A stretch of 51,256 nt of DNA from a virus. Location: the IMG/VR virus record IMGVR_UViG_3300030090_004676, positions 1 to 51,256 of that record; one strand, written 5' to 3'. Shown one piece after another: positions 39,540-48,028 of the stretch (position 1 is the stretch's first letter; each line of letters opens with the position of its first letter). Below the pieces are notes generated by a model. That model ran no database searches and was not told the origin of the DNA. It saw only the letters and a program-made list of their open reading frames with translations. A program made the position numbers and the translations under genes.

Positions 39540-39545
39540 TTATAG

Positions 39546-39638
39546 CGGCGACGGATAGGAATCGAACCTACCTGTAGTATCAACTACTACACTACGGTGT
39601 TGAAGACCGAGGAGAGCACCAGCTACTCAATCGTCGCC
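39546..39638 (-). tRNA. selC: Probable selenocysteine tRNA (anticodon TCA)
   Basis: A 93-base, long-variable-arm tRNA. Acceptor GGCGACG/CGTCGCC with discriminator G. Anticodon loop CTTCAAC gives TCA, which reads UGA. The variable arm is TGTAGTA-GTTGA-TACTACA (7 base pairs). Between acceptor and T stem there is one extra position on each side (either A.C, or G-C extending the T stem), so the stacked helix is 13 pairs long, as in tRNA-Sec, rather than 12. The D arm can form six pairs around a four-base loop TGGT with one bulged T, again Sec-like. No CCA end. A UGA-suppressing tRNA-Ser is the main alternative. Confidence 0.8.
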
Positions 39639-43968: not shown

Positions 43969-44371
43969 TTAAATAGTCCTGTATTTCTTCTGAATCTTTA
44001 GTTTCCCAAGGATAAACAATCCATTTATCTCGTTTATCAATTAATGCTAAATCTGGTTTAACAATACTTTGTTCGTGTTCGTGAATTGTTACATAAAAAC
44101 TTTTCTCTGATTTAGGGTGATTTTTATATTTTTTTAATGTATTACCCGTGTCAGCTATATCATCAATTATTACAACGTTTTCATTTACGTCATCAAATCT
44201 ATCAATATATGGAATATCCATTTTATGACTTAATAATATAGCTAACAACGCTCCGCCTCTAGGTATACCATAAACACCTTCAAAAACTTTACCTCTATCT
44301 TCATCTTTTAGATAAAACGCTATATCTGTGATACACTCATCAATTAACTCCCAACTTATAAATTCTTTCAT
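43958..44371 (-). CDS. Type I phosphoribosyltransferase
   Basis: A 137-residue enzyme with the PRPP-binding motif VVIIDDIADTGNT (residues about 66-78), a GIPRGGALLA loop and the C-terminal WIVYPWE seen in xanthine/hypoxanthine phosphoribosyltransferases such as Gpt. It would join a purine-like base to PRPP. In this operon it could recycle guanine released by DpdA, or act in salvage. This link is inference. Confidence 0.82.
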   Translation of the reverse strand: MKEFISWELIDECITDIAFYLKDEDRGKVFEGVYGIPRGGALLAILLSHKMDIPYIDRFDDVNENVVIIDDIADTGNTLKKYKNHPKSEKSFYVTIHEHEQSIVKPDLALIDKRDKWIVYPWETKDSEEIQDYLNEN

Positions 44372-44994
44372 TTTAAATCCCTTATAAAGTTATAAAATTC
44401 TTCTCGTGAATGACTATCATAATTCATAAACTCACCACTCAACTTAGATGTTTTCATAGTAGAATTATGTTTGATACCACGTACACAAGCACACATATGG
44501 TCAGCCTCGACAGATACAGCAACACCAATGTTTTCTTCACACACATCGTGAATGTGGTCGTGTACCTGCATTGTTAAGTTCTCTTGTACTTGAGGTCGTC
44601 TAGCATAAAAATCAACAATACGATTGAGTTTACTAAGTCCAATCACTTTACCCTCAGGTGTAGGTAGATAAGCCACGTGAGCATGTCCTACAAAAGGTAA
44701 ATGATGATGTGAACAAAATGAATGTAATTTAATATTACCCTGAAACACAATACCATCATAACCATCTACATTATCAAATGCTGTTATCTTAGGTGATTCA
44801 TTATAAACACCTGAAGCTAAATCATTGACAAAAGCTTTAGCCACTCTGATAGGAGTTTCAGAAGAGTTAGGGTCTTCACTCCAATCGAATCCAAGAGCTG
44901 TCATATAATTACCATAATGTTCAGCAGCTTGTTCAATCATCTTTAGTTTTTCTTGTTCTGTCAACGGATTGTTTCCGTTAGCATGTTTCAACAT
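44368..44994 (-). CDS. folE: GTP cyclohydrolase I
   Basis: A 208-residue type I enzyme that converts GTP to dihydroneopterin triphosphate, first step toward 7-deazaguanines and folate. Zinc ligands and active site are intact: C94 and H97 within FCSHHHLPFVGHAHV, GLSKLNRIVDFYARRPQVQE, and HMCACVRG with the third zinc Cys near 168. It overlaps its neighbours by 4 and 17 bases and is in one operon with queD, queE and dpdA. Confidence 0.95.
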   Translation of the reverse strand: MLKHANGNNPLTEQEKLKMIEQAAEHYGNYMTALGFDWSEDPNSSETPIRVAKAFVNDLASGVYNESPKITAFDNVDGYDGIVFQGNIKLHSFCSHHHLPFVGHAHVAYLPTPEGKVIGLSKLNRIVDFYARRPQVQENLTMQVHDHIHDVCEENIGVAVSVEADHMCACVRGIKHNSTMKTSKLSGEFMNYDSHSREEFYNFIRDLK

Positions 44995-45562
44995 AATGTA
45001 CTTTCCTTATTAAATGTTTAAATCTTTTATCATCTAGTTTAACTGGTATAAGATGAGCATAATCAGATTGTTTAGTTCCAATATATGCTATTTTTTGAAT
45101 CCAATTATTGTGTTCAGGTCTATCCCATTCTCTATAAATAAAAGAACGCATTTCGTATAAATCATAATATACATAGCTTCCTGTAGCAATCCATTTATTA
45201 TTTTCTTGTATTATTTCCATATGATATATTCTATTAGATTGTGAATCTTGTATCCAACCTAACTCTTCTTCTCTACCATGTTCAGAAAATTTAGCAGGAT
45301 GCCATTTTGTATATTCTAAATCAAATTGATAACAATTATTATATTTATTATACCAAAAATTAGATTTAACGTCTGTGGTTATTTCACTTGACCAACTTTT
45401 ATTTTTAAAACCGTAATCTATACCTTTTCCCTGAACATCTTTCCACATTTCATAGTTAGTATAGTCATACACTTCGTCCCATTGCGATTGAGCCATTTCA
45501 CGAAAAGCTAATTCACCAGCTTTACCCTTTGTTAACTGCTTTACAAATAAAGCTTTACTCAT
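44978..45562 (-). CDS. PDDEXK-like nuclease in the DNA-modification operon
   Basis: A 194-residue protein. KGKAGELAFREMA (catalytic-type Glu), QGKGIDYGF (Asp) and TTDVKSNFW (Asp-x-Lys) are spaced like the core of PDDEXK restriction-type endonucleases. The rest is rich in Trp and Tyr. It lies between the small membrane-protein gene and folE. A nuclease inside a guanine-modification operon could attack unmodified host or rival DNA while sparing phage DNA. The nuclease call rests on motifs only. Confidence 0.6.
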   Translation of the reverse strand: MSKALFVKQLTKGKAGELAFREMAQSQWDEVYDYTNYEMWKDVQGKGIDYGFKNKSWSSEITTDVKSNFWYNKYNNCYQFDLEYTKWHPAKFSEHGREEELGWIQDSQSNRIYHMEIIQENNKWIATGSYVYYDLYEMRSFIYREWDRPEHNNWIQKIAYIGTKQSDYAHLIPVKLDDKRFKHLIRKVHYVETC

Positions 45563-45788
45563 CTAAACTCCATTGTCTGTAACCAAAAACATTCATACCA
45601 ATTACAAATGCACTTATTGCTATTTGAGGAGGTGCATCAATCAGATAAGCATATATCAAGAATGCAACATTACCTAATCCCCAAATAATAAAACAAGTCT
45701 TTATTTTTTTAGCATTGAAGTAGTAACCGGCTACTATAGCAGCAGTTCCTATCCAACCTATCCAATCATACCCCACGTTCATCTCCAT
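45555..45788 (-). CDS. Small three-helix membrane protein, PnuC/SemiSWEET-like
   Basis: A 77-residue protein with three hydrophobic helices (about 10-25, 30-48, 54-70), ending FGYRQWSLDE. The three-helix size and the N-x-x-G-Y-x-x-W ending recall PnuC and SemiSWEET-type half transporters that work as oligomers. It overlaps queE by 23 bases. Two in-frame ATGs (45788 and 45782) are possible; the second follows ATGGAG. A transporter for a pathway intermediate or nicotinamide riboside is speculative. Confidence 0.6.
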   Translation of the reverse strand: MEMNVGYDWIGWIGTAAIVAGYYFNAKKIKTCFIIWGLGNVAFLIYAYLIDAPPQIAISAFVIGMNVFGYRQWSLDE

Positions 45789-46512
45789 ATACTATTATAT
45801 GTAATCTATCTGTAAAATTGTAACCCTCACGAGTACATAGTTCTGTCAACCATCTTCGTCTTTCATTTAGTTGACTACGTTCGAGACCTTCAGGCATTAA
45901 ATATACCTTATCATTTGGTACACCTAATATTCTTTGTAACTCTTTTACTTCTTCTAAATCTTCTTCACTTGAGATAACTGGTTTGAGTTGATAATCAGGA
46001 TGATTCTCGATAAGTTGAGACATAGCCTCATAATTACAACGCCACTTTTCGTGTTTCTTTTTATCAGCCTCAGTAACAACTTTACCAGTATAGGGCATTA
46101 TTGTACCTGGTTTAGGTGTACTATTTGATAATTTAGGAGACAATGAAATTAAATCACCCATAGTAGAAACAAACTCACTACCTTCAGTTTCTATTGTGAT
46201 ATGTTGATAGTTTTTTTTAGCTATCTCACAAAGTTTTATTAACATCTCTTTATGTAGTGTAGGACCTCCTCCAGTAATCATAGTATGAGTAATGTGAGGA
46301 TGTTTTACAAAAAACTCGTGAACATCTTTATATGTAAATTTACCTTTTTCAGGTTTCCAAGAACTATAAGGTGTATCACAAAACGAATCAGCAAACTGAC
46401 AACGTAATCTACAACCACTTACACGAATCAAGATATGAGGTACTCCCATAAGTTTACCCTCACCTTGTAAACAAGTATATATTTCATTTATAGGTAAAAC
46501 TTTATCTGACAT
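45766..46512 (-). CDS. queE: 7-carboxy-7-deazaguanine synthase (radical SAM)
   Basis: A 248-residue radical SAM enzyme that contracts 6-carboxytetrahydropterin to 7-carboxy-7-deazaguanine (CDG). It has the family opening EIYTCLQGEGKLMGVPHILIRVSGC, three cluster Cys (C34, C38, C45) ending FCDTPYSSW, GGGP (81-84) and IETEGS. The Cys spacing is CX3CX6C rather than the common CX3CX2C; the four extra residues lie just before the last Cys. Larger spacings are known in other QueE proteins. It overlaps queD by 11 bases. Confidence 0.92.
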   Translation of the reverse strand: MSDKVLPINEIYTCLQGEGKLMGVPHILIRVSGCRLRCQFADSFCDTPYSSWKPEKGKFTYKDVHEFFVKHPHITHTMITGGGPTLHKEMLIKLCEIAKKNYQHITIETEGSEFVSTMGDLISLSPKLSNSTPKPGTIMPYTGKVVTEADKKKHEKWRCNYEAMSQLIENHPDYQLKPVISSEEDLEEVKELQRILGVPNDKVYLMPEGLERSQLNERRRWLTELCTREGYNFTDRLHIIVYGDERGV

Positions 46513-46945
46513 ATTCTGCGTGATTGTTTTCGTGCTCCCAAATTTCTACTCGTGTAATCTCTACACGATTGTTTGTTTTCTTTTGAATCATTGGATTTAT
46601 CATATCGTATAGATAACGACAAGACTCTTCGATTCCAGGATAATAACCATCAGGTAATATATTTAAATATATAGCACCTGTTTCTTCTAATTTTTTTAAT
46701 TCGGGAATGAGAGGGTCGTCAGCAGCTATTAAAACGTTATGGTCCCATTCACTTTCAATCCATCTCTTTATATCTCTCAAGTCACCAAAGTCCATAACCC
46801 ATCCTCGTTCATCAAGTTCTGATGCTTCGAATGTTAATCTTACATATCTTCCATATCCATGAATATAAGAACAATGACCTTTGTCTTTCCATTGACGATG
46901 ACCTGTAGTGATAGGCCCAAATCGTTTAGTTGATTTGAATTTCAT
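46502..46945 (-). CDS. queD: 6-carboxytetrahydropterin synthase
   Basis: A 147-residue T-fold enzyme that makes 6-carboxytetrahydropterin from dihydroneopterin triphosphate. Visible residues: H16 (TTGHRQW), catalytic C25 (KGHCSYIHG), H29, the DHN motif in EWDHNVLIAADDP, and Glu in IWEHENN. The usual HGH zinc pair reads HGY (H29, Y31), so one zinc ligand is replaced. It is the first gene behind the strong promoter at 46974-47002. Confidence 0.9.
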   Translation of the reverse strand: MKFKSTKRFGPITTGHRQWKDKGHCSYIHGYGRYVRLTFEASELDERGWVMDFGDLRDIKRWIESEWDHNVLIAADDPLIPELKKLEETGAIYLNILPDGYYPGIEESCRYLYDMINPMIQKKTNNRVEITRVEIWEHENNHAEYVR

Positions 46946-47567: not shown

Positions 47568-47599
47568 TACTTACTACCCAAAATGGTAATTTTTTTTCG

Positions 47600-48028
47600 T
47601 GGAGCTGGTGGGAATCGAACCCACGTCCAAATGTTTTCTCGATAAAGTCATTCACAGCTTAGTTCAGTTTCAATTAAAGGAGTAACTGACAAACTACTTG
47701 TACTTCTTTATACTCTACATACGAAAGAGTGTACTTCTTTATACTCTACATACGAAAGAGTTAGTGTTTAACTTTTTTTATGACCGAGTGTTAAACAACT
47801 CAGTATCTTCGCTTACTATATTAAGCGTATGCGTAAGATGGTTGAGAAGTACGAGCTGGTTCAACGTAAGTGTCAAACATCTGCTCGGTATTGGCTAAGT
47901 GCCAATCAATTTCCAACCCTTGTAGCGATTTATCGCCATTTGGTTTTTGTTGAGTCTTATTTAAGAGTTTACTCATACTCTGCTGCACTCTATTGTCAAA
48001 GAACATCTGTCGAAACCAGGTCAGCCCC
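47600..48028 (-). ncRNA. ssrA: tmRNA (trans-translation RNA)
   Basis: A 429-base RNA. The 5' end GGGGCTGACCTGGTTTCGAC and the 3' end GGACGTGGGTTCGATTCCCACCAGCTCCA form the tRNA-Ala-like domain, with the G3-U70 pair read by alanyl-tRNA synthetase. The tag frame ends in SYAYA with TAA at 47821-47823, inside a helix CGCTTA/TAAGCG. The resume codon is probably GCT at 47856 (tag ARTSQPSYAYA), or GCC at 47895. A pseudoknot follows: ACTGAGT/ACTCGGT hairpin whose loop GTTTAAC pairs with GTTAAAC. CCA is not encoded. tmRNA frees stalled ribosomes and tags their products for proteolysis. Confidence 0.93.
47700..47761. repeat. Perfect 31-bp tandem duplication inside tmRNA
   Basis: Two identical 31-base units (47700-47730 and 47731-47761) follow each other without a gap. 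On the RNA strand each can form an ACTCT/AGAGT hairpin with a GTAT loop segment able to pair with the GTAC at its 3' end, so each unit may be a small pseudoknot. It lies in the pseudoknot part of the RNA, not in the tag. Confidence 0.9.

Follow-up and report, generated by a model that had tools for sequence, protein, structure and literature searches.

The window, a 51,256-base IMG/VR virus record, encodes a tmRNA whose tag of 38 encoded residues opens with a conserved N-terminal module. We put at roughly 0.7 the probability that this is a working T4-like phage tmRNA whose module, as we infer its function, diverts tagged proteins toward a specific protease or adaptor. An earlier note on this DNA drew attention to a duplicated pseudoknot unit and did not mention the conserved tag of about 38 residues. 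The long conserved tag is the more unusual of the two features.

The tmRNA gene and its phage

A search with the Rfam tmRNA model RF00023 matched window 47597-48028 (minus strand) with 108.8 bits against a gathering score of 47 (E 1.1e-41) and spanned model positions 1-374 of 374, confirming a real, full-length phage tmRNA. The earlier note had proposed this search as a check, and its reading of a phage tmRNA with a two-ended tRNA-like domain, a tag frame, and pseudoknots is borne out by the result. The match is contiguous from 5' to 3' along the one-piece model, and no permuted order with the 3' half upstream was present, ruling out a two-piece (permuted) tmRNA. ARAGORN reported four tRNAs in the window and missed the tmRNA.

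The RNA has its 5' end at 48028, and its tRNA-like domain ends at 47600, where it is followed by CGA, indicating that CCA is not encoded. A G3.U70 wobble, the alanine identity determinant, was read from the sequence between the 5' and 3' acceptor strands (GGGGCUG/CAGCUCC). The open tag frame lacks a start codon and reaches its UAA stop (47821-47823) inside helix 5. This helix covaries in relatives: a Thr codon AC. goes with GUU/GUC after the stop (27) and a Ser codon UC. with GAU/GGU (11), with 2 exceptions. A 13-nt extension of helix 5 lies right after the stop in the window (47811-47823) and is absent from all relatives with measurable spacing. The features are collected in Table 1.

Table 1. 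Features of the tmRNA gene, in window coordinates
Feature	Position	Strand	Support
One-piece phage tmRNA gene	47597..48028	-	RF00023 full model; 57 distinct full-length relatives
tRNA-like domain, 5' half: GGGGCUG acceptor strand and UGGUUUCGACA	48004..48028	-	sequence; Rfam alignment
Pseudoknot 1: S1 GAGU/ACUC, S2 UGAGU/ACUCA	47951..47980	-	sequence; spacing of S2 3' arm to resume codon
Hairpin around resume codon (UGGCGA-UAAA-UCGCUA)	47923..47938	-	kept pairs; fold z -2.3; synonymous controls
Tag reading frame, resume codon GGC, 38 codons, GDKSLQGLEIDWHLANTEQMFDTYVEPARTSQPSYAYA	47824..47937	-	pN/pS; codon-position variation; A at -4
Conserved N-terminal tag module, first 15 codons, [GS][DE]xSLxGLx[IV]DWHLA	47893..47937	-	invariant residues in relatives
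Second hairpin within tag frame (AUUGGC-ACUUA-GCCAAU)	47890..47906	-	fold
Helix 5, enclosing last codons and stop codon	47805..47839	-	covariation; fold z -3.2
Pseudoknot 2: S1 CUGAGU/ACUCGG, S2 GUUUAAC/GUUAAAC	47766..47803	-	sequence
31-nt unit copy 1, pseudoknot 3: S1 ACUC/GAGU, S2 GUAU/GUAC	47731..47761	-	exact repeat; S2 covariation in relatives
31-nt unit copy 2, in pseudoknot 4 position	47700..47730	-	flank AAGUAGUUUGUCAGUUACU shared; identical pair in L110
tRNA-like domain, 3' half with T arm (GGACGUGGGUUCGAUUCCCACCAGCUCCA)	47600..47628	-	sequence; Rfam alignment

The window contains T4-like genes for baseplate wedge proteins, a QueD-like and a QueE-like protein, and peptide deformylase. 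The QueD-like and QueE-like genes lie within window 44368-46945 together with a putative GTP-cyclohydrolase-like gene, which suggests deazaguanine or queuosine-type metabolism. In the nearest isolates by baseplate wedge, Microcystis phage Mel-JY01 and Flavobacterium phage immuto, no tmRNA scored above the cut-off. A selenocysteine tRNA with anticodon UCA was found at window 39545-39638 (minus strand; RF01852, 65.4 bits); it is identical in the related contig L113 and 91% identical in L110. Assigning a host through this tRNA was rejected, as it is unlike the tRNA-Sec of the metagenome-assembled genome (MAG) TMED198. Four other viral contigs (L004, L007, L009, and L027) carry 77-79-nt tmRNA-like domains in which the tRNA-like ends are joined and no tag is present; we take these to resemble the tRNA-like-only form of DS6A. 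A molecule similar to such tag-less domains is reported to inhibit tmRNA (PMC4131195).

The long tag and its reading frame

The frame encoding GDKSLQGLEIDWHLANTEQMFDTYVEPARTSQPSYAYA is aligned with the Rfam resume position. Its architecture, a conserved 15-residue N-terminal module, then a spacer that varies, and last an ordinary ending of degron type (YAYA/YAYAA), recurs in relatives, which share the module motif at the N-terminal end and QPTYAYA(A) at the C-terminal end; the tags of 57 distinct full tmRNAs are 34-42 residues long. Residues L5, G7, L8, D11, W12, H13, L14, and A15 are invariant among 30 distinct tags. Searching IMG/VR with the tag profile gave 129 pattern matches, with 128 stretches confirmed in viral contigs. 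Among 84,980 genomes of prokaryote species, the same profile matched only once, in MAG TMED198, where the 7.5-kb contig concerned looks phage-derived by its ORFs. The chromosomal-type ssrA of that MAG encodes the ordinary tag ADYGYAAAA, and no cellular tmRNA with a long tag of the window type was found in this genome set.

Several lines of evidence indicate that the long frame is read. pN/pS was 0.32 in the tag frame versus 1.97 and 0.77 in the other two frames, and minor alleles at codon positions 1, 2, and 3 numbered 59, 40, and 153 in 49 distinct 45-nt cores; both measures treat related sequences as separate and are descriptive. Tag indels have lengths divisible by three, and the spacing between the core and pseudoknot 2 is constant modulo 3 in 52 of 53 cases, the exception being the window with its helix 5 extension. 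The residues D, H, L, and A of the DWHLA segment are kept while their third bases vary freely. Upstream, A at -4 and U at -1 are each present in all 54 members, and the resume codon is GGC in 44, AGC in 7, GAC in 2, and GGU in 1. It follows the 3' arm of pseudoknot 1 S2 by 10-13 nt in the 45 members in which the arm was located (13 nt in the window), compared with 12 nt after pseudoknot 1 in Escherichia coli, where A86 is near-invariant (PMC2481249). In two relatives, L110 and L112, in-frame stops precede the resume region shortly, with no in-frame start codon between. Together, the codon-position bias, the low pN/pS, the multiple-of-three indels, and the canonical resume signals show, by comparative analysis, that the long tag frame is translated and under protein-level selection. 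An alternative 13-residue product of the +1 frame, AINRYKGWKLIGT, was rejected, since it is not kept in relatives and the frame statistics speak against it.

A second group of long tags was found through the more distant relatives L187 and L190, whose tag is AEDNTSDLLAEAEYIFNNADE...LAA. The search for this family returned 84 confirmed stretches comprising 63 distinct members with tags of 32-45 residues, and all six members tested matched RF00023. Its minor-allele counts at codon positions 1, 2, and 3 were 74, 54, and 254, with A at -4 in 63/63, U at -5 in 61/63, and GCA as resume codon in 62/63. In many members (L333-L412) a hairpin starts from the second base of the resume codon. Comparison of the two families gave an hhalign probability of 17% and a pairwise P of 0.0014, so that their homology is suggestive only. 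Neither long tag had a convincing match among 50,697 phage records.

The coding part also folds. The four core pairs of the resume-codon hairpin form in 45 of 49 distinct cores, one of which replaces C-G by U-A on both sides, and the first 17 codons reach -11.4 kcal/mol in the first family versus -8.5 kcal/mol for synonymous controls and -11.2 versus -6.9 kcal/mol in the second with A+T-biased codons; these counts and comparisons take related sequences as independent. The conserved tag sequence could thus serve RNA hairpins in part.

Two readings would deny the peptide its role. In one, selection acts on the N-terminal module mainly at the RNA level, its hairpins gating or timing resumption and the peptide having no partner. 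The kept resume-codon pairs, with changes on both sides, and the better folding of native codons in both families favor this view, and the block in the E. coli tmRNA A86C mutant has been attributed to a helix that encloses the resume codon (PMC2481249). We nevertheless consider it unlikely, because the module keeps D, H, L, and A of its DWHLA segment over free third bases and the codon-position counts of the second family show the same protein-like pattern. In the other, the true tag is short, with resumption further in (GDYQPTYAYAA, GDSQPSYAYAA) and the conserved upstream stretch acting only as a structural insert. ARAGORN does place internal tags, 11-25 residues long, in several relatives, hairpins form within the insert, and L177, a related phage, carries DNYTQYAYAA, a tag of the normal 10 residues. 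However, protein-like evolution in the same frame extends to the upstream core, the resume signals (A at -4 and the 10-13-nt spacing) precede that core, and the internal sites vary between members and lie far from pseudoknot 1. We rejected these internal sites on the codon and resume-signal evidence and regard a short tag as very improbable. ARAGORN shortens the long tags of L255, L275, L278, L282, L290, L293, L187, and L190 and misses most others, and such calls probably introduce errors into the annotation of tag collections.

The 31-nt unit and the pseudoknot ring

A repeat search of the window located an exact tandem pair of a 31-base unit at 47699-47729 and 47730-47760, the strongest array in the window (TRF score 126, 100% matches); the coordinates in Table 1 follow the pseudoknot register. 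The perfect repeat described in the earlier note is thus upheld, as is its view of the unit as a pseudoknot, for which it had suggested looking for covariation in related phages. The second stem of pseudoknot 3 covaries there (AUGUU/AACAU, GCAU/AUGC, GUAU/AUAC, ACACA/UGUGU). Of 22 distinct relatives of the ACUC...GAGU type, 21 have a second stem; with shuffled partners the mean was 12.6 and the maximum 18. Because second stems covary in this way, the 31-nt unit is read as one H-type pseudoknot, pseudoknot 3.

In relatives, pseudoknot 3 is followed by a distinct pseudoknot 4 with first stem UCAG/CUGA and a second stem that is variable but paired. In the window and in L110, copy 2 replaces that pseudoknot and is followed by the same flank, AAGUAGUUUGUCAGUUACU, which also follows pseudoknot 4 in L268 and others. 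Since copy 2 stands in the place of pseudoknot 4 with the same flank next, the ring most likely still holds the typical four (pseudoknots 1, 2, and 3 and a copy of 3 in position 4), which would make this a cassette swap and not an enlarged ring. Pseudoknots 2-4 are interchangeable according to Nameki 2000, as cited in PMC3985003 and PMC1168896, and some cyanobacteria have two small tandem pseudoknots in place of pseudoknot 4 (PMC1168896). Copying of pseudoknot 3 into this place is read as one among several cassette swaps by which such tmRNAs evolve, and it is expected to be near neutral.

The earlier note had suggested that the duplication could change the ring, which in its strong form means a fifth pseudoknot. 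Two complete units do stand in tandem, and the long hairpin over both copies that nested folding permits as a competing structure (-14.6 kcal/mol) is listed on the same side, as is the relative L297, in which the 31-nt unit is followed by two further pseudoknots. Against this, no separate pseudoknot 4 is present in the tmRNA of the window or L110, and the pseudoknot 3-4 stretch of 106 nt in the window falls within the 94-147 nt of relatives; we hold a fifth pseudoknot in the window to be highly unlikely, and the suggested change of the ring is not borne out. That the second copy is an assembly artefact, as the perfect identity of the copies might suggest, is less probable still: contig IMGVR_UViG_3300029448_000256 (L110/L302) has the same two perfect copies, and the two genomes, compared along about 11 kb where they are collinear, share only 84-96% identity. 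An assembly slip or chance is in practice excluded by this pair in a genome that differs by 4-16%.

Single copies also occur, in L018 with a different pseudoknot next and in L297, a tmRNA at positions 1078-1528 of a phage-like contig binned in MAG TMED198, which seems to have five pseudoknots, one extra. The gene appears mosaic: different segments of the window gene have different nearest relatives, namely L013 for the 5' part (96%), L219 and L217 for the tag spacer (86-87%), and L110 for the pseudoknot 3-4 stretch (99%). L113 is about 94% identical to the window over 5.4 kb downstream of the tmRNA and matches it on each side of the tmRNA middle, not inside it. These patterns of identity suggest that related phages have exchanged the middle of the gene.

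Proposed role and comparison with known systems

Broken mRNA is plentiful during infection. From general tmRNA biology, the alanine-charged RNA, aided by host SmpB and EF-Tu, would enter ribosomes stalled on such messages; the ribosome would switch to the GGC resume codon, add alanine and the 38 encoded residues, and stop in helix 5. Host SmpB is presumed because SmpB was not found in the contigs of 25 relatives (most of them fragments, one of 216 kb); ClpP was likewise not found there. The coding hairpins from the resume codon onward probably keep the longer message compact. Host ClpXP-type proteases would receive tagged proteins through the C-terminal end of the tag, and an adaptor or a further protease may have an additional docking site in the N-terminal module, much as the longer Mycoplasma tag serves Lon. 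Structural searches lent no weight to docking: the AlphaFold prediction for the tag was of low confidence and showed no fold (pLDDT 57.6), and a PDB search with the tag profile gave only a chance-level hit (best E 0.8), so that the motif has no convincing counterpart among solved structures. More broadly, though we hold it less likely than not, lengthened phage tags may carry a conserved peptide that re-routes proteins from stalled ribosomes to a fate chosen by the phage (a different protease, an adaptor, or a non-degradative one), making rescue a takeover tool; the two families, possibly distantly homologous, would share this design.

The usual account of tmRNA tags treats them as short signals for degradation. 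That phage tmRNAs in two groups keep a long peptide under protein-level selection suggests that the tag can carry a second instruction during infection. Because the usual gene finder misses or shortens long tags, surveys relying on its calls will have overlooked them. The swapped pseudoknot units illustrate in nature the interchangeability that engineering revealed in E. coli.

Compared with bacterial one-piece tmRNA (ssrA, RF00023), the window tmRNA has the same G3.U70 two-ended domain, a resume codon 10-13 nt after pseudoknot 1, A at -4, a stop within helix 5, and four pseudoknots. It differs in its conserved N-terminal module, its resume-codon hairpins, the pseudoknot 3 unit in position 4, and its tag of 38 encoded residues, whereas the commonest length is 10 (PMC11915505) and reviews in the open-access literature give lengths of 8-35 (PMC8012679, PMC2862035). 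The tmRNAs of mycobacteriophages and crAss-like phages are also virus-borne, those of mycobacteriophages adjoining tRNAs; the phage tags examined for comparison are mostly 12-25 residues, and those of GenevaB15, Tonenili, cr10_1, and cr50_1, in this range, have no similarity to the window tag. The two-piece tmRNA of marine phages such as Melnitz (PMC9004378) is likewise phage-encoded, whereas that of the window is contiguous and not permuted. By analogy, the nearest functional precedent is the Lon-directed Mesoplasma tag (AANKNEENTNEVPTFMLNAGQANYAFA, 27 residues; PMC9097571, PMC8138137): Mycoplasma/Mesoplasma ssrA tags are bacterial and shorter and, compared by eye, share no motif beyond the alanine-ended tail, but they too carry an upstream extension before a hydrophobic, alanine-ended tail.
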